In this document: one piece after another, positions 3,956 to 27,166 of the stretch
Position numbering within the stretch: position 1 is the stretch's first letter
Layout of the letters: each line of letters starts with the position of its first letter
Source: PVC group bacterium
GTDB lineage: Bacteria; Auribacterota; Erginobacteria; Erginobacterales; PUNC01
Assembly (NCBI GenBank): GCA_003551625.1
Contig: PUNC01000011.1
Span: 1-52,823, forward strand
DNA: 52,823 nucleotides
Direction: 5' to 3'
Notes under the pieces: model-generated
Told to the model about the DNA's origin: nothing
Database searches by the model: none
The model's input: the letters and a program-made list of their open reading frames with translations, nothing else
Position numbers and translations under genes: made by a program

Positions 3956-4341
3956 CTCCCCCCTCCCCCGGCGGCGAGAGCCTTCTCCACCCGGGAGGAG
4001 ATCTCTTCCGGGCCGGCGGGCGCGGCGATATAATCGGCGGCGCCGAGGTCGCGGGCGATCCGGGAAAAGACCTCCCCCCGGCGGGTGGAGTAGAAGACGA
4101 CCGGGATCGACGCCAGGCGCGAATCGAGCTTGAGCGCGGCCAGGGTGGTGAAACCGTCCGGTCCCGGCATAATCAGATCCAGGAGAATCAAGGCCGGATG
4201 GTATTTCCGGGCCATCCGCAGCGCCTCCCGCCCGTCGCCGGCTTCCCGGACCCGCCAGCGATCATCCGGCAGGGCGTTTTTCAGGTCTCCGCGGAGATTG
4301 AGTTCGTCGTTGACTATCAGGATCAGGGGATTGGCGTTCAT
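3952..4341 (-). CDS. stand-alone response-regulator receiver domain
   Basis: 129 residues forming one CheY-like receiver with no output domain. The phospho-acceptor Asp55 is present (LILLDLIMPG), as is the Ser/Thr of strand 4 (FYST, 85-86). Two canonical positions differ: the first residue of the acidic pair is Asn (VNDE, N11) and the conserved Lys before Pro at the end of strand 5 is Ala (YIAAPAG). These substitutions suggest altered metal binding or phosphorylation switching. It overlaps the serpin stop by ATGA and its own stop overlaps the PilB-like start by ATGA, so the three proteins are likely made together. No histidine kinase is in the window. Confidence 0.9.
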   Translation of the reverse strand: MNANPLILIVNDELNLRGDLKNALPDDRWRVREAGDGREALRMARKYHPALILLDLIMPGPDGFTTLAALKLDSRLASIPVVFYSTRRGEVFSRIARDLGAADYIAAPAGPEEISSRVEKALAAGGGGR

Positions 4342-5579
4342 TCTTGTCTTTCCGCCGGCGAATCAAAACGCCCCCAGAAAAGCACGGCGCCGGATTCCCG
4401 GTCGCGGATCAGGTAGGTGAACGGGCGGTCGGCCCGAAAGACCGCGGGAGGAGCGGGAACGGCCGTCACGCCGATCCCCACCGCGGTGGCGGCGGCCGCT
4501 TCGGTCCCGGTCTCGTCGACTTCGATCCAGGCCTGGTGAAGAACGGCGGAGATGAAGAGATCCTCCGTCCCGTCGATTCCGGAAAAGTCCGCCCCTTCGG
4601 AGAAGGCCTCCTCCATTCCCAGCGCTTTGAGAGCTTCATCCAGCCGCAGGCGCGATTCGGTTCGAAAACGGGGGAGGAAGACCTCGACCCGGCGGCGGGG
4701 CCAGGTCCGCGGCCGGAGAAGCGGATCGGCGGCGCAGACGCCGGCGAAAAGCCGGGCCGGCTCGGTTTCGGGGTCGGGAAGAATCACGGTCATCGCCAGC
4801 CTCTCTCCCGAGTAAGGCAGCTCCACGGCTTGAAGACCGTCTTTCTCCAGGTAACGGAAATCATCGGTCACCCTCATCAGGTCAACCTCGGCCTCGCCGC
4901 CGGCGGCCGGAAAGAAGGGGGCCGGTTCCGTTTCCTCTTCGGGGAAAATCGTTCTCCAGTCCGCCCGGAAATAGACGGCGTTAACTATCATCAGGCGCGT
5001 GAGAGCCGTGATCACTCCCGGCGGGACCAGGTCCCGGATCCTCTCCCCAGTCTGTTCGGCGACCCAGCGGTTGATCCCGGCCCGCGCTTTCTCCGGGCGG
5101 CGGAAATCAACCCGGCCGAAGGCGGCGCGATAGTGTTTCTCCACAAGTTTCAGATACTCCGGCAGGAATTCGTGCCCATCCTGTCCCCATAATCGACTGA
5201 CCAGCCGGAGCTGGTCGCCGGCGGCGGAATCCCCCAGTTCCGCCAGGAAGTTCCCCAGCGTCGGATGAAGCCGATCGGCTTCCAGGCCGTATTCCAGGGC
5301 GCGATCGAAACCCTCGGCGGTCGAGCCCCGGGCTCCGGCGTAAGCGATGGTCAGCGCTCCGTAAACGCTCAGGGGAGAGAAGAGAAGATTCTCTCTCTCC
5401 GGAATATCCAGATTGAAGATTTTGGTCGCGAACCGATTGACTCCTTCCACCAGTCTCATCGTATTCTCCGGGGTCGTAGAAGCCGGGGGCGTCCCGGCGG
5501 CCGAAACGGACCGAACGGTAATCGCGGCCAGAGCCGCCGCCAGGCAGACGAAATGTTTTTTCCAGCGCGCCAGGTTCAT
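4338..5579 (-). CDS. secreted serpin (serine protease inhibitor)
   Basis: 413 residues with an N-terminal signal peptide (hydrophobic stretch about 10-27 ending SVSAAG). The serpin core is clear: NLLFSPLSVYGALTIAYAGA, LMIVNAVYFRADW, ELPYSGERLAMTVILPDP, and the C-terminal signature FRADRPFTYLIRD followed by VLFWGRFDSP. The reactive-centre hinge is of the inhibitory type: EVDETGTEAAAATAV, with Gly358, Thr359, Glu360 and a run of Ala at P12-P9, which permits loop insertion. The likely P1 region lies around IGVTAVP (369-375), so Val or Thr rather than Arg may be the cleavage residue. Bacterial serpins are sporadic. The export signal implies a periplasmic or extracellular protease target. It starts 7 bp after the upstream gene's stop (SD GAGGG) and overlaps the receiver gene by 4 bp. 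Confidence 0.93.
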   Translation of the reverse strand: MNLARWKKHFVCLAAALAAITVRSVSAAGTPPASTTPENTMRLVEGVNRFATKIFNLDIPERENLLFSPLSVYGALTIAYAGARGSTAEGFDRALEYGLEADRLHPTLGNFLAELGDSAAGDQLRLVSRLWGQDGHEFLPEYLKLVEKHYRAAFGRVDFRRPEKARAGINRWVAEQTGERIRDLVPPGVITALTRLMIVNAVYFRADWRTIFPEEETEPAPFFPAAGGEAEVDLMRVTDDFRYLEKDGLQAVELPYSGERLAMTVILPDPETEPARLFAGVCAADPLLRPRTWPRRRVEVFLPRFRTESRLRLDEALKALGMEEAFSEGADFSGIDGTEDLFISAVLHQAWIEVDETGTEAAAATAVGIGVTAVPAPPAVFRADRPFTYLIRDRESGAVLFWGRFDSPAERQE

Positions 5580-8138: not shown

Positions 8139-8195
8139 ACCAAGATCGGAAATAATCGCTCTTGTCTTTTGGCTCGCCCGGTTTCTCTTTGATTG

Positions 8196-9662
8196 ATGTT
8201 TAAATTCGACCCGGATTATGAAAACCCGGGTCCGGCGGAGTCTTTCAAGATGCTTTCACCCCAGCAATACTACCGCGATCCGGAGGTCAGGGAGAGGATC
8301 GCCGAATACTGCGGCGGGACCGCCCGGGAACCGGAACTGTGCACCTCGGAATACCTGGTCGGTTACGGGCAGGCACTGCTGGAAACCCCCGCGCCGGAAC
8401 CCTACGTTTCCACGCCCAAACAGGCCTTCGATTCCATCCTGGAACGAAGCCTGGACATCTTCCGATCGATCTGGGACCGGGTCCACCTGCTGGGGGTGCT
8501 CGACCTGGAATACTTCAACCTCGATCACCCGGGAACCGTCTATCTCGACCAGGAAGGGGTTTTCCGCCGCCTGGAACCGGTCTTTGAGGCGATCGGAAAG
8601 CTCTATCGGGATTACGGCCTCCAGCCCCTGACGGTGATGACCGGGCAGGGATATCATTTCTCCTTTCAGATCCAGTCCGGCACCGGCACCGATCTCGAGC
8701 TGCAGGCCATCGGCCGGCTGATCGATTCCCTGGAGGGAAAATACCGGACGGCCGCCAGCAAGCGGCACCGGCCGGTCTCGCTCCGCTACGGAAGGTCTTT
8801 TGACGGGATGGGAAAGGTGATGGAGTTTTTCGCTCACGAGATCATCCGGAAGGCTTCCGGCCTGACCGATCTGCCCCTGGTCATCACCGACGTGGCCGTC
8901 GGCGGCGGGAAGAGAGGGAGGGAGGCGATCTCCCTGGACCTTTCCTGCTTCGGCGACCCGGTCTATATGCGGGACGTCCGCTGCCCTTTCTCCACCCATC
9001 AGAAACACAAGATTCAGATTCACAAGGTCGGGGAAGAGATCTCCCGCGCCACCCCGGTCCAAGTGGCGGTCCCCCGGGGGCGGCTCGCCCTCAAAGAGGC
9101 CCTGGCGTTGAGAAGACACTTCCGCGACAGCTCGGAATACGCGCGGGACGTTTACTGTTTCATACCCGATTTCACCGTCAACTGGAAGAGGGTGATCAAC
9201 GCCTATCGCGGAAGCGAACTCGCCCGTTTCCACCGCTGGCTCGACGACGAATCCCAGGATCACTGGTCGGAATGGGACCGGACCTACCGCGCCTTCGACC
9301 CGGGGGTACTTCCTCCCTGCGCGCGGCTCCCCCTGGAAAACCCGAACGATCAACTTCTTAAACCGACCAACCTGCAGACGCTGACCCGCTGCCTGCTGGC
9401 CCTCGGCTGGCATCCGGTTCATATCGCCGGGCTGGTCCGCGCGAAATGGGAAGGCCCCCACGGCTGGCCGGAAGGACAATGGCGACATTTCGACGCCGGG
9501 TCGCGGTCGCTTTTTTACGTCCGCGTCTTCAGCGGGCTGATCGCGGCCGGCATCGACGAACAGGTGGACCAGAACTGCGTCTCCCAGCAGCAAAAAGGCT
9601 ACTGCCCTCAGCCGAACTGCGGCTTCAACCTGAGCCGTTTCCGCTGGGCGGGGAAATTTTAA
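8196..9662 (+). CDS. AEP-superfamily primase-like protein with PriL-type C-terminal Cys domain (copy 1)
   Basis: 488 residues from the ATG at 8196. A second ATG at 8250 has the better ribosome site (GGAG, 9 nt) and also fits the paralogue's N-terminus, so it may be the true start. Residue numbers here count from the codon at 8193. Motif I LDLEYFN gives D104 and E106, close to DLEFN of human PrimPol. Motif II TGQGYHF gives H155. Motif III SLDLS gives D249. It is followed by YMRDVRCPFSTHQKHK (R260, R263, S267, H269, K271), like the R...S.H.K element of PriS. The last 120 residues resemble the Fe-S domain of PriL: LPPC (C376), PTNLQTLTRCLLALGW, then C462-x8-C471-x4-C476. A single-chain PriS+PriL arrangement is inferred; activity is unproven. 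The next gene begins 6 bp later. Confidence 0.7.
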   Translation: MFKFDPDYENPGPAESFKMLSPQQYYRDPEVRERIAEYCGGTAREPELCTSEYLVGYGQALLETPAPEPYVSTPKQAFDSILERSLDIFRSIWDRVHLLGVLDLEYFNLDHPGTVYLDQEGVFRRLEPVFEAIGKLYRDYGLQPLTVMTGQGYHFSFQIQSGTGTDLELQAIGRLIDSLEGKYRTAASKRHRPVSLRYGRSFDGMGKVMEFFAHEIIRKASGLTDLPLVITDVAVGGGKRGREAISLDLSCFGDPVYMRDVRCPFSTHQKHKIQIHKVGEEISRATPVQVAVPRGRLALKEALALRRHFRDSSEYARDVYCFIPDFTVNWKRVINAYRGSELARFHRWLDDESQDHWSEWDRTYRAFDPGVLPPCARLPLENPNDQLLKPTNLQTLTRCLLALGWHPVHIAGLVRAKWEGPHGWPEGQWRHFDAGSRSLFYVRVFSGLIAAGIDEQVDQNCVSQQQKGYCPQPNCGFNLSRFRWAGKF

Positions 9663-9668
9663 TCGGTT

Positions 9669-11090
9669 ATGAAACAACGGACCATCACCGCGAAAGAGGA
9701 GGAATCGATCCGAGCCTATTACCGCCATCCCGGAGTCCGGGCCCGGGTGGAGGAGTTCTGCGGCGGCAAAGATTTCAGCTGCGAATACCTGGTCGGCTTC
9801 GGCCCCGGCCTTCTCCGCAGGGGATGGCGCCGGCCTCTCCGGCTGACGGTCGGAAGGACCGGGCTGACCGGGCTTATGGAGGAGGGGCTCGACCTCTTCC
9901 GCTCGGTCTGGGACACCTCTTCCACCCTGGCGGTCTGGGACGTGGAATACTTCAACCTGGACAGCTGGCGGGGTCTCTACCGGGACCAGGACGGCCATTT
10001 CGCGCTGATCGAGCCGGCCTGGCGCGCGATCACCTCGCTGCTGAACCGATACGGGGTCCGCTTCATCGACGACACTACGGCTTCAGGATATCATTTCGTC
10101 TCCCGAATTCCCTTCTCCTCTCCGGTTCACGCCCGCGTGGAATCGATCGGACGGATTGAAGAAAGCCTGGCCCGAAGGTACCGCGGGACCGCGGAAGGAG
10201 ACGAGAAGCGACGGCGGCCGGTCGGGGAAAGAGAGGCCCTTGGCTACAGCGGTATCGGCCGCCTGATGGAGTACCTCTGCCACCGGGTTATCGCCGAGGT
10301 TAACGGCGGCGACAGCCCGATCCCGGCTACGATTTCCGATACCGCCGGGGGCGGGAGCGGACGGGGACGGGAAGGAATAAACCTGGATATCACCCAATAC
10401 GCCGACCCGATCTATATGCGAACGATCCGGACCACGTTTTCCACCCACCAGAAGCACAAGGTCTACACCCGGCTGGTGGGGGAAGACACCGCGCGGGAGG
10501 TGGGGGTCTTCGCCGCCCTTCCCCGGGCGGGGCTCGACTATCGGGAACTGACCCGGTTCCGCCGGGACCTGTCCGCGGCGGCGGAATACTCCGGCCGGGT
10601 CGGCGGCTTCATCCCGGACGCCGCCGCCGGCTGGAAATCGGTCCTAGAAGATTATCTGGCCTCACCCCTCCATCGCTTTCACGCCGATTTCGACGAATAC
10701 CGTCCGGGACGCTCGGGTCGGCCGCCGGAGCTCGATCCCGCTTCGCTGCCCCCCTGCGTCGCCGCCGCGACCAAGAATCCCAACCCGGAGCTTCTCCGTC
10801 CCACCAATCTCCGCAATCTCTGCCGGGTCCTGATGCGGCGGAAATGGCATCCCCGCCGGATCGCCGACTACATCCGGGCGCGCTACGAGGAAGACCACGG
10901 TTGGGAGGTCGACTGGAACAAGTATCACCCGGAAGTCCGCGCCAACTTCTGGAGCCGGGTTTTCTGCGGTATGATCTCGACCGGACTCGACAGATTCGAA
11001 GATTTCAACTGCGACTCCCTGCAAGCCTCGGGATTCTGCCCGTCGCCCCGCTGCGGCTTCAGCTTGGCCGAATCGGGAGGCGGGGCTTGA
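9669..11090 (+). CDS. AEP-superfamily primase-like protein with PriL-type C-terminal Cys domain (copy 2)
   Basis: 473 residues, a divergent paralogue of the preceding gene along its whole length. Motif I VWDVEYFN (D91, E93), motif II TASGYHF (H142), motif III NLDIT (D240), then YMRTIRTTFSTHQKHK (R251, R254, S258, H260, K262). The C-terminal domain carries LPPC (C363), LRPTNLRNLCRVLMRRKWHP, and C448-x8-C457-x4-C462. The D-to-H spacing (51) and the last Cys spacings are identical in the two copies; PPC to the next Cys differs by one residue. All predicted catalytic positions are kept, so neither copy looks decayed. It was probably produced by an old tandem duplication and may form a heterodimer or divide labour with copy 1. 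The ATG at 9669 has only a weak ribosome site, which fits translational coupling. Alternative: a nucleotidyltransferase of the same fold with another substrate. Confidence 0.7.
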   Translation: MKQRTITAKEEESIRAYYRHPGVRARVEEFCGGKDFSCEYLVGFGPGLLRRGWRRPLRLTVGRTGLTGLMEEGLDLFRSVWDTSSTLAVWDVEYFNLDSWRGLYRDQDGHFALIEPAWRAITSLLNRYGVRFIDDTTASGYHFVSRIPFSSPVHARVESIGRIEESLARRYRGTAEGDEKRRRPVGEREALGYSGIGRLMEYLCHRVIAEVNGGDSPIPATISDTAGGGSGRGREGINLDITQYADPIYMRTIRTTFSTHQKHKVYTRLVGEDTAREVGVFAALPRAGLDYRELTRFRRDLSAAAEYSGRVGGFIPDAAAGWKSVLEDYLASPLHRFHADFDEYRPGRSGRPPELDPASLPPCVAAATKNPNPELLRPTNLRNLCRVLMRRKWHPRRIADYIRARYEEDHGWEVDWNKYHPEVRANFWSRVFCGMISTGLDRFEDFNCDSLQASGFCPSPRCGFSLAESGGGA

Positions 11091-11136
11091 GCCGGGATGC
11101 CGCCGCGACGAGAAGTTGAAGCCGCAGGAGACAAAA

Positions 11137-12264
11137 ATGCCTCCACGGAGAAAGATCCGCCTTCGAAGGATCGTCTCCGGGATGGTGATCCTGGCCTGGG
11201 CCGGGATCTTCTACCTCCAGTTCGAGAGGTCCTTTATCGGGGCTCTCGCCCAGAATTTAAGCCCATCGTTTCTTTTCTCGTTCCTGCGGCACCAGCTCTT
11301 CTGGATGGCCTGGCTGACCTTTCCCCTCCTGGTTCTCGCCTGGAAACGCGGGCGATACTTCTGCTGGAAGCTCTGCCCGGTGGGATTGGTTCAGGATTTT
11401 CTCCCCGCGGCGGGAAGATCCAAGCTCACTTCCTTCAACCGCGCTCTCTTGATCTTCCTGGCCGGTTTCAGCCTCTTCAGCCTCAACCTGGCCGCTTTCC
11501 TCGATCCCCTGGTATCGTTCAATCGCGCCGTGGCGGCCACGGCCCTGCGGGCGGGTTTCGCGGTCACCTTCCTCCTCCCCCTGGCGCTGATCTTCGCCGC
11601 CAGCCTCTGGCGCCGGCGGTGGTGGTGCTTCAAGCTCTGCCCCCTGGGAGCGATCGTCGACTGGACCTATCAGAGACGACGGCAGCGGAATGACGAGCCG
11701 GATATCGGCCGCCGGCGGATGCTGCTGCTGCTGGGCGGCGGGATGGCGGCCGGCGTGGCCCGCAAGGCCCTCTTCCCGCTGCTCCCGCCCCCCGCTCCCC
11801 GCCTCATCCGACCTCCCGGGGCGAGGCCGGAGAGCGGTTTCCTCGACCGCTGTATCCGCTGCGGGAGCTGCCTGGCGATCTGCCCGACCGGCGGCCTCCA
11901 GCCCAGCCTCGCCGAAAGCGGTTGGAGCGGCATCTTCACCCCCCGCCTGGTCCCGCGGATCGGGGAGTGCGCCGCCGACTGCAACCGCTGCGGCCAGTCC
12001 TGCCCCACCCAGGCGATCCGTTACCTGCCGATGGCGAAGAAGTGGAACTTCAAGATGGGCTCGGCCCGGATCGACCAGGAGACCTGCATCCGCTGTATGC
12101 TATGCGTGAGGAGCTGCCCCTACGACGCGATCGAAGCCAGAGGCGGGGCGGCGCGAATGATCGACGAGTTCTGCCGCGGCTGCGGTCTGTGCGAAAAGGT
12201 CTGCCCGGTCGGTCCGGTCGCGGCGATCCGGGTCTTCAACGACGGGGCGGGAAAGTTTATTTAG
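11137..12264 (+). CDS. NapH/MauN-like membrane polyferredoxin
   Basis: 375 residues from ATG 11137 (SD GCAGGAG); an in-frame TTG at 11116 is less likely. The N-terminal half has membrane helices interrupted by two CxxxCP motifs, FCWKLCPVG and WCFKLCPLG, as in NapH/MauN/NosR-type quinol-to-periplasm electron carriers. The C-terminal half carries ferredoxin-type clusters: CIRCGSCLAICP, then C-A-A-D-CNRCGQSCP, CIRCMLCVRSCP and CRGCGLCEKVCP, enough for about four [4Fe-4S] clusters. Expected role: membrane electron transfer to an unidentified oxidoreductase; no nap, nos or mau gene is in the window. It lies 46 bp behind the AEP pair on the same strand, so co-transcription is possible but may be coincidental. 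It converges on the next gene. Confidence 0.85.
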   Translation: MPPRRKIRLRRIVSGMVILAWAGIFYLQFERSFIGALAQNLSPSFLFSFLRHQLFWMAWLTFPLLVLAWKRGRYFCWKLCPVGLVQDFLPAAGRSKLTSFNRALLIFLAGFSLFSLNLAAFLDPLVSFNRAVAATALRAGFAVTFLLPLALIFAASLWRRRWWCFKLCPLGAIVDWTYQRRRQRNDEPDIGRRRMLLLLGGGMAAGVARKALFPLLPPPAPRLIRPPGARPESGFLDRCIRCGSCLAICPTGGLQPSLAESGWSGIFTPRLVPRIGECAADCNRCGQSCPTQAIRYLPMAKKWNFKMGSARIDQETCIRCMLCVRSCPYDAIEARGGAARMIDEFCRGCGLCEKVCPVGPVAAIRVFNDGAGKFI

Positions 12265-23730: not shown

Positions 23731-25394
23731 CCGCAGATCGTTTCGCTCAACGCGTCTTCGTCCCCCAGTTCCAGAAAACCCTGCAGACGACGGCGGCGGG
23801 TGGGATGACGCATCTTGCGCAAAGCCTTGGCCTCGATCTGACGGACCCGTTCCCGGGTCACGTTGAAGATCTTGCCGACTTCTTCCAGGGTCCGCGGGGA
23901 ACCGTCATTGATCCCGAAACGAAGGGCGAGCACCTGGGCCTCGCGCTTGGTCAGAGTAAAGAGCACGTTCTTCATCTGTTCCCGAAGCAGCACGTAACTG
24001 GTGGCCTCGGAGGGGGATTCGGCCGACTTATCCTCGATAAAGTCGCCGTACTGGTTTTCGTCCTTGTCGCCCACCGGCGTCTGCAGCGAAATCGGATGCT
24101 GGGCGATCTTGAGAATATCGCGGATCCGCTCCAGGGGGATATCCATCTCCTCTCCCAGCTCTTCCGCCGAAGGCTCTTTTCCCCGGTCCTGGAGCAGCTT
24201 TTTGCGCACCCGGTTGAGCTTGTTCATGGTTTCGATCATATGCACCGGAATCCGGATGGTCCGGGCCTGGTCGGCGATCGCCCGGGTGATCGCCTGACGG
24301 ATCCACCAGGTGGCGTAGGTCGAAAACTTGAAGCCGCGGTGATACTCGAACTTATCCACCGCCTTCATCAGGCCGATGTTCCCTTCCTGAATGAGGTCGA
24401 GAAAGGTCAGGCCGCGGTGGAGATATTTCTTGGCGATACTGATCACCAGCCGCAGGTTGGCGACCACCATCTCGTTTTTCGCCTGGTGGGCTTCCATCAA
24501 ACAGGACTTAAGCTCGAGAAAACGTTCCTGATACTCCCCGCATCCCATCGTCAGGCCCACCTCGATCCGGGCGAGTTTCCTCCGCTCGTTGCGGATCAGG
24601 TTCTTGTGTTTCTGGTCCTTCTTCTTCTTCCGCTTCAGGGACTCCAGGGATTGGTTGATCTCCTCGATCCGGAAATGGACCCTCTCCAACGCCGGAAAGA
24701 TATCCTCGAGAACGGACTGCTTGAAAGATAGTTTCTTCAGGCTGGCGGCCGTATCCTGCCGGAGACGTTCGATCTTCCGGGCCAGATTGGCCTTCTTCTT
24801 CTCCGTCAAACGAGTCCGCTTCGTCTCGGCCCAGGCCTTCCCGATCGCTTCCTGCTGGGCGGCGATCCGTTCGATCAGACCGGGGAGATTCTGAAGGTAT
24901 CTCTCTCGGCTCCGTCCCTTCTTTTCCACCACCACGCGGTCGAACCTTTCCTTGCCGTTGAGAACCCTTCGGGCGATACCGACCAGCTCCTGCGGGGCGG
25001 GTCCCAGAGAAAGCGTGATCCGGTAGATCCGGTTCTCCGCCTTCTCGATCCTTTTTGATATCTCCACCTCCTCCTCACGGGTCAGAAGCGGAACCTGTCC
25101 CATCTGGCGAAGATACATCCGGACCGGGTCGTCAAGAAAATCGTCGGTCTCGAACGGGCCGGACCCGGGCGCGGGCTTTCGTTTTCCCGTTCCCTCCCGG
25201 CCGGAAGCTTCCTCCGATTCTTCCAGGATCGTAATCCCCAACCCCTGAATCAGGGTTTCGATCGAGTCCCGTTCCTCGTCGCTGACCATCTCTTCGGGAA
25301 GAAGACGCCGGAAATCGGCCGCGGTCAAAAAACCCTGCTCTTCCCCGAGCGCCAACAGCTTCCTGACATTCTTATCCTTATTCTGGTAAATCAT
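23724..25394 (-). CDS. rpoD: primary sigma factor RpoD
   Basis: 556 residues, group 1 sigma-70. Region 1.1 occupies about residues 1-60 ([21 protein letters not shown]), region 1.2 starts [20 protein letters not shown], and a charged non-conserved insert follows. Region 2 contains [20 protein letters not shown] and [19 protein letters not shown] (core binding, -10 recognition and melting); region 4 ends with [20 protein letters not shown] (-35 recognition). The region 2.4 and 4.2 sequences are close to the standard, so the usual TTGACA/TATAAT-type promoters should be used; two tRNA promoters in the window match. It overlaps dnaG by ATGA (25391-25394), the conserved dnaG-rpoD macromolecular-synthesis arrangement. 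Confidence 0.97.
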
Positions 25395-27166
25395 TCAAAA
25401 ATAATCCCCTGTTTGATTGCCTCCGCCGCGCCGTCAAGCTCCCGGCGCAGTTCCAAACACCGTTTTTGCAGGCCGCCGACATCGCCGCCGTTTCGCTCCT
25501 CCAGCGCGACCCGCTCGGCCAGCAGGGCGAGCCGGCGGCGGAGACCGTTCCTCCTGACACTGATTAATAGATCGACCGCTTCGGGCGGAGGAAGACGGCA
25601 GGCGGAGGAATCCATCATCAGACTCGCGGCCAGGCTCTTGGTCTTTTCCTCTTCCAGTTCTCCGAGAAGATAACGCGAAACGGGCAGCCGGCCGCTTTCC
25701 CCGAGCCGGACAATCTTGTCGGCGATCTCGTTCCAGGGAGGCGAGAAGTCGGCGGCCACAACGAAACCGGCCATTTTATCAAATAAGATATCATCGGCCA
25801 AAAGGACGCGCAACAGCTCCTTTTGGTTCCGTTCGCCCGGGGCGAAGGTTTTTCTCTCCGTCGGGGGAGCGGACTTTTTTCGGCCCCGGTTCCTGAACTC
25901 CTCCCGGACCGAGGCGGGGGAGACTCCCAGCCGCCGGGCCAATTTCAGCAGATAACCGTCGCGAAGCACCGGACTTCCCAACCGGGAGACCGCCTCCAGC
26001 ATCCTCCGGACGATCTCGATCTTTCCCCCGTCGGTGGAGGGGTCGAAGCGCTTCAGGAGGGATTCCAGGATAAAGTCCAGCAGGGGCACTGCGGCGGCGG
26101 CGGCTTTTTGAAAAGCCGCCGCCCCGTGACGGGCGATAAAACTGTCCGGGTCGGAGCCTCTCGGAAGTGAGAGTACCCGGACCTCGAAATCCTTCTCCAG
26201 AAAGACGGAGAGGCTCCGGAAGACCGCTTCTTCGCCGGCGACATCGGCGTCGAACGCGGTGACGATCCGCTCGGTATAGCGTTTCAGAAGCTGCGCCTGG
26301 CGGGGGGTGAAAGCGGTACCCTGGGCGCAGACCATATTCTCAATCCCTTCTTGATGAGCCCGGACCACGTCGAAATACCCCTCGCCGAGAAGCGCCTCAC
26401 CTTTTTCCGCGATCATTTCCTTGGCCAGGTTAAGACCGTAAAGGACTCTCCCTTTTTCAAAAAGCGGCGTCTCCGGGGAGTTGATATACTTGGGTTGGGA
26501 GTCGTCCAGCACCCTTCCGCCGAAGGCGATCGTCCGGCCCTGGACGTCGAAAACGGGAAAGATCAGGCGATCGCGGAAACGGTCATAACAACCGTCTCCC
26601 CGGCGGCGCGGAACCGCCAGCCCCGCTTCGATCAAGGCCGGGGTCTCCTGCTTCCTTTTGGCCGCCAGTCTGACCAGACCGTCCCAGGAAGGAGGAGCGT
26701 ATCCAAGCTTGAACCTCTCCACGGTATCCCGGCCGATCTTCCGTCCCGCCAGATACTCGCGGGCCCTCCGCCCGGTCGAGGATTCCAGCAGCGCCCAGCG
26801 ATAATACTCCAGGGCCAGGCTGTGAATCTTGAGAAGAACTTCCTTGCGGGAACGGGCTCCCGGCCGGCTTTCGGGGAGCTCAATGCCCGCCCGGCGGGCC
26901 AGAAGAGCGACCGCTTCCGGAAAAGTGAGATTCTCCTGGCGCATTATGAACGAAAAGACGTCGCCACCGGCGCCGCAGCCGAAACAGTGAAATATCTGTT
27001 TTTCCGGGTTTACCGAAAACGAAGGGGTCTTCTCGGCGTGAAAGGGGCAGAGGGACTTGAAATTCCTGCCGCTCCGCTTGAGCGGCAGATAGGAGGAGAT
27101 CACTTCCACGATGTCGTTGCCGAACTGAATAGTATCCTTCAGTTCGGGCGGTATATAGCGTCCCAA
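25391..27166 (-). CDS. dnaG: DNA primase DnaG
   Basis: 591 residues. The N-terminal CHC2 zinc site is C40, H43, C61, C64 ([11 protein letters not shown] ... [11 protein letters not shown]). The RNA-polymerase/Toprim core follows, with [10 protein letters not shown] and [14 protein letters not shown] as the acidic metal sites; the second motif has Ala where many DnaGs have Gly (FDGD). A helicase-binding C-terminal domain covers about 440-591. The start is a TTG at 27166 with a strong AAGGAG 6 nt upstream. The protein makes primers for replication together with DnaB. Its presence shows that the AEP-like pair at 8.2-11.1 kb is additional to the standard primase. Confidence 0.97.

Follow-up and report, generated by a model that had tools for sequence, protein, structure and literature searches.

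Two adjacent paralogous genes for predicted AEP proteins with a PriL-like C-terminal domain in Auribacterota and other bacterial phyla

The gene pair at the locus

The stretch of DNA analysed here (the window, 52,823 nucleotides) carries on its plus strand two open reading frames that lie head to tail, 6 nt apart. Gene A (8193-9662) is predicted to encode an AEP domain followed by a PriL-like Fe-S domain, and gene B (9669-11090) is its paralogue with the same domain plan. The A frame opens with TTG 8193 or ATG 8196 and ends at 9662, giving 489 or 488 residues, and the B frame, from ATG 9669 to 11090, gives 473. The true start of A is probably ATG 8250, because this is where the homologues have their M-L-[TS]- N-terminus and because the structural model falls below a pLDDT of 50 over residues 1-17; residue numbers of A are counted here from ATG 8196. 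An alignment of 467 columns, which covers nearly their full length, gives the two proteins 40% identity (E=6e-112); the two neighbouring frames are the genuine pair that the original prediction had taken them to be. Neither A, B nor the family profile gave an above-threshold match in Pfam, PHROGs, NCBIfam or the PDB sequences.

A GATAAT/CATAAT-like element, perhaps a promoter -10 box, was seen by eye 5' of the conserved A start at five Auribacterota loci (L003, L004, L006, L007 and L009); a LexA-like/SOS box or a shared dyad was not found upstream of A. On the other side of the pair, a membrane-type 4Fe-4S ferredoxin gene (11116-12264, plus strand; NapH-like by eye) starts 26 nt past B and may share its transcript, an adjacency that is not conserved in the other loci examined.

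Catalytic and C-terminal domains

The three AEP motifs of A are D103-x-E105 (motif I, 8502-8510) on the predicted strand 97-108, G152-Y153-H154 (motif II, 8649-8657) on the predicted strand 152-160, and D248 (motif III, 8937-8939) at the end of the predicted strand 243-248, all encoded on the plus strand. The equivalent plus-strand motifs of B are D91-x-E93 (9939-9947), H142 (10092-10094) and D240 (10386-10388). All 53 aligned homologues are identical at D103, E105, G152, D232, D248, R259, R262, S266 and K270, and H154 is kept in 51 of them; the catalytic residues of A and B thus hardly vary across many phyla, a degree of conservation in the alignment that is not chance. The residues named in the original prediction are present, its numbers being one higher since they were counted from TTG 8193.

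AlphaFold2 models built on a 46-sequence alignment have a pLDDT of 91.2 for A and 92.4 for B, and the catalytic residues lie in or next to their predicted strands, following the sequence order expected of AEPs. In Foldseek comparisons of the models with the PDB, AEPs take the first 28 places for A and the first 23 for B, with a best probability of 1.00; they include Prim-PolC, the LigD polymerase, CAPP, human and Xenopus Pri1, human PrimPol, RepB' and the S-2L PrimPol, and matches outside the AEPs lack a convincing score. The agreement is modest (E-values of 1e-3 at best, TM-scores of about 0.5), which makes A and B distant members, and comparison with BFVD gave weak matches only, some of them to entries labelled primase, replication protein or DUF927. 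On the strength of the predicted fold, together with the motifs hD-x-(D/E), xxH and hD, both proteins belong to the AEP superfamily. The AEP assignment first made from the motifs has thus been borne out for both proteins at the level of predicted structure, all meaningful matches being AEPs. Of the two outcomes that the original prediction named as refuting it, a fold that sets the catalytic residues apart and a C-terminal domain unlike PriL, neither was seen, the strand positions being consistent with a single active site.

A more specific likeness to PriS holds in part. The segment R262-CPF-S266-T-H268-Q-K270-H-K of A (8979-9011, plus strand) corresponds to the motif with which PriS binds the nucleotide (human K318...H324; PMC5862659), and the H-R-H signature described for archaeal PriS by Kazlauskas et al. 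(PMC5862659) is represented by H154, R262 and H268, the last being Y in some homologues. The "PriS-like" label is supported by this R...S.H.K resemblance but not by the PriS profile (DNA_primase_S, PF01896), which had no match in any A/B family gene among 31 genomes, or by the nearest folds, which are those of Prim-PolC and LigD-Pol. A profile of the AEP domain likewise gave no match among the PDB sequences.

The C-terminal part of A (9309-9638, plus strand) contains four cysteines, C375, C461, C470 and C475, with codons at 9318, 9576, 9603 and 9618; that of B (10743-11069, plus strand) contains C363, C448, C457 and C462, with codons at 10755, 11010, 11037 and 11052. The four cysteines are present in every complete A protein, each of which shows P-x-C (mostly PPC), helices and then, in most, C-x8-C-x4-C-G. 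The C-x8-C spacing is the same as in archaeal PriL, for example C334/C343 of Gerd_ePriL (PMC12770985).

In a six-frame search of 31 genomes the PriL profile PF04104 exceeded its cut-off of 22.4 bits only in four archaeal control genomes; in the genomes G061, G059 and G065 its best match of the whole genome lay inside the family gene, with E-values of 0.004, 0.01 and 0.04 and 15.5 bits at most, another match reaching 14.6 bits. Real PriL has its PPC at profile positions 109-111, and in the matches at L033 and L037 the family PPC cysteine falls at position 111, in register with PriL, while the match at L031 is off by a few positions. One sub-threshold match spans positions 46-157, including the helices before the PPC; a PriL N-terminal domain was not seen. 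When the family C-terminal domain was aligned to PriL with hhalign, the cysteines were paired, and the alignment as a whole had a probability of 51%, an E-value of 1.6e-4 and a score of 29.2, a score not reached by any of 150 column-shuffled controls (11.0 +/- 2.3). The PriL profile used for this comparison consists of three sequences only, Sso PriL (5of3), the archaeal-type PriL of L095 and one hand-written consensus that matches PF04104 at 7.9e-33; a profile of two PriL sequences had given a marginal result, which improved only once the third, real PriL had been added. The L095 gene (561-1547), on the viral contig IMGVR_UViG_3300035698_007355, was the one sequence found by a pattern search of IMG/VR for further PriLs.

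The four cysteines are kept as a set or, in diverged B copies, lost as a set, as expected of one metal site: in the B proteins of Elusimicrobiota and of one Hydrogenedentes genome the catalytic residues are kept and the Fe-S cysteines are gone. The C-terminal domain is likely, but not proven, to be homologous to the PriL Fe-S domain, the sequence match being weak but in register, and may hold an Fe-S cluster. The C-terminal resemblance to PriL noticed at the outset survives this profile comparison; the wider term "PriL-like" applies to the Fe-S part, the rest of PriL not being recognizable. At one further locus the B copy (L031:5140-6615) diverges from the family sequence past the third cysteine, perhaps through an assembly error, while its close relative L033 does not.

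Distribution, ancestry and genomic context

A whole-genome search of Auribacterota found A together with B in 11 of 44 genomes, in every case as two neighbouring copies, and neither gene in the remaining 33, one alone never being seen. A scan of 84,980 species genomes with two peptide patterns yielded 31 family loci, and because it rested on those patterns the true spread of the family is wider. The hosts include Candidatus Auribacterota (Euphemobacter, Erginobacter, Tritonobacter), Elusimicrobiota, Hydrogenedentota, Lindowbacteria, Schekmanbacteria, Wallbacteria and UBP18, together with single bins labelled Clostridia, Proteobacteria or Thermodesulfobacteriota. A search of a second phylum gave six genomes with both genes, eight with neither and two with A only, of which one is a 0.7-Mb bin and the other has its match at a contig end. 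Among 23 further genomes B never occurs without A and about ten have A only, which points to A as the core component, with B depending on it. A supposition that the copies outside Auribacterota are single was rejected, many of those genomes holding a diverged B elsewhere.

A 45-row tree splits every B copy from every A copy (100/99), and in a tree that includes the diverged B copies from other genomes B forms one clade of 20 rows (99/81); an extra copy in a Lindowbacteria genome groups with A, not with B. As read from these sequence trees, A and B descend from one old duplication. One Hydrogenedentes genome carries, directly upstream of a B-type gene, a third member of the family that has diverged strongly and shows the motifs MLDIESS and GKGYHF (L094:1587-3131).

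The ordinary bacterial primase gene dnaG lies on the same contig as A and B (25391-27166, minus strand), which agrees with the coexistence claimed in the original prediction. DnaG is present in 21 of 21 good Auribacterota genomes and in 19 of 21 others, the remaining two being MAGs of unknown completeness; replacement of DnaG by the family is accordingly rejected, and its coexistence with DnaG would make A/B an additional chromosomal primase. The genes next to the family loci vary by lineage and are ordinary ones, such as those for a DUF401 transporter, a 4Fe-4S protein, LpoB, DUF374, thiamine genes, a Clp ATPase, PhoH and CysS. Among the annotated neighbours no conserved replication or repair gene was found, nor any cas, Ku, ligase or replicative helicase gene. 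Xylose-isomerase-like TIM-barrel genes (PF01261) adjoin the A gene in several phyla (L042, L043, L045, L046, L047, L049 and L053); some are nearest to CbiR, below cut-off, and following them gave no functional link. Elsewhere in the window a serpin gene, here in a bacterium, occupies 4338-5579 on the minus strand (E=6e-71 to a proteinase inhibitor I4 serpin of the PDB).

Candidate roles and related systems

The reading preferred here, at a probability of roughly 0.6, is that A and B represent a new bacterial family of chromosomal primase-polymerases with an auxiliary function, either repriming or the repair of DNA ends or gaps, and probably act as an A-B complex. The AEP domain, with its D-x-E, H and D residues, would join nucleotides on a single-stranded template, R262 and H268 would contact the incoming nucleotide, and the part of the Fe-S domain would be to fix the template and the initiating nucleotide for de novo primer start, as the PriL-CTD does for PriS, where it is required for initiation (PMC2852410). 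Kept together since their duplication, A and B would probably form a complex that needs only a single Fe-S domain, as suggested by the loss of this domain from B in Elusimicrobiota and one Hydrogenedentes genome; such a complex cannot be obligatory in several lineages, since these seem to have A alone. Because DnaG is present an auxiliary job appears likely, and within it priming (repriming past lesions or stalled forks, damage tolerance) is the first choice on the present analysis.

The main rival is that the pair serves repair, as polymerases for gap filling or end joining that extend ends and do not start primers, the Fe-S domain being a DNA-binding or structural module. This is the most serious of the alternatives but still rather unlikely. 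It draws on the closest folds, those of Prim-PolC and LigD-Pol, and on the microhomology end joining (pp-MMEJ) mediated by archaeal PriSL (PMC12019639); the niche may also be free, since the LigD polymerase profile (LigD_Prim-Pol, PF21686) was found in 0 of 44 genomes of the phylum sample. However, primases that initiate are marked by the R...H motif and by an Fe-S domain of PriL type, and neither Ku nor ligase adjoins the annotated loci. The mycobacterial Prim-PolC and LigD polymerase domains, the best structural matches of the catalytic domain, differ from A/B in having no Fe-S domain and in serving gap filling or end joining with LigC/LigD.

Bacterial AEPs in the surveyed literature are described as repair polymerases (LigD, Prim-PolC), as CRISPR-linked CAPPs or as mobile-element replication proteins. 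That the pair is a replication primase domesticated from a plasmid or virus accords with the patchy spread across phyla and with the many bacterial AEPs encoded by mobile elements (PMC5862659), yet no relative of the family occurs in 50,697 phage records, 72,556 plasmid records or IMG/VR, there is no helicase partner among the annotated neighbours, and the old A/B duplication has been kept in place in a whole phylum; such an origin is improbable. Less probable again, and hardly to be expected, is a CAPP-related primase that serves defence or CRISPR adaptation. CAPPs (e.g. that of Marinitoga, a Foldseek match of both A and B) are likewise bacterial single chains in which the AEP core precedes a PriCT domain that has conserved cysteines (PMC8211822), and PriCT and PriL Fe-S domains have been proposed to be homologous (PMC5862659). 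Unlike A/B, they have N-terminal TPR or RT domains and a CRISPR operon, whereas the annotated neighbours of A/B are housekeeping genes with no cas gene among them, the both-or-neither pattern is stable inside phyla, and the motif is HRH as opposed to the HKH of prokaryotic primases beside CRISPR or Argonaute genes (PMC5862659).

A/B share with archaeal and eukaryotic PriS-PriL the AEP motifs, the R...S.H.K motif and the PPC...C-x8-C...C Fe-S domain, and differ from it in the single chain, in the lack of a PF01896 match and in a PF04104 match below cut-off. In archaea and eukaryotes the catalytic and Fe-S domains usually reside on two separate proteins. A single-chain AEP plus PriL plan is already known: PolpTN2, the primase of the Thermococcus nautili plasmid pTN2, has an N-terminal AEP and a C-terminal four-cysteine PriL-like domain, and the protein is brown, consistent with Fe-S (PMC3973330). 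It is much longer than A/B, with extra PriCT-1 and winged-helix domains, belongs to an archaeal plasmid, does not form a chromosomal pair and gives no sequence match. The Nanoarchaeum equitans primase, monomeric with features of heterodimeric ones according to the title of the work cited in PMC12770985, is an archaeal replicative enzyme that is like A/B by that description. The statement that this type of family is not recognized in bacteria was therefore too strong, a similar plan being found in PolpTN2 (PMC3973330) and in the bacterial CAPPs (PMC8211822). A published description of the A/B family was not found in the open-licence literature, and what is new in it is the combination of a bacterial, chromosomal and compact protein, pairing through an old duplication, and loss of a domain in one partner.

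If the preferred reading is true, several bacterial phyla possess, beside DnaG, a new family of paired primases that are encoded on the chromosome and bear an Fe-S domain of PriL type. A bolder extension, possible but doubtful, is that several uncultured phyla have on the chromosome a complete archaeal-type primase, a heterodimer of two paralogous AEP plus Fe-S chains that is inherited as a pair and works beside DnaG; a PriS/PriL-like division of labour would then have arisen when a fused ancestor was duplicated and one copy lost its Fe-S domain, as in the B of Elusimicrobiota. The family is also relevant to the question of which came first, PriS-PriL or the fused forms, and since the Fe-S domain is present in one copy and lost from its paralogue in one lineage, the contribution of this domain to primer start could be tested in compact single-chain proteins.
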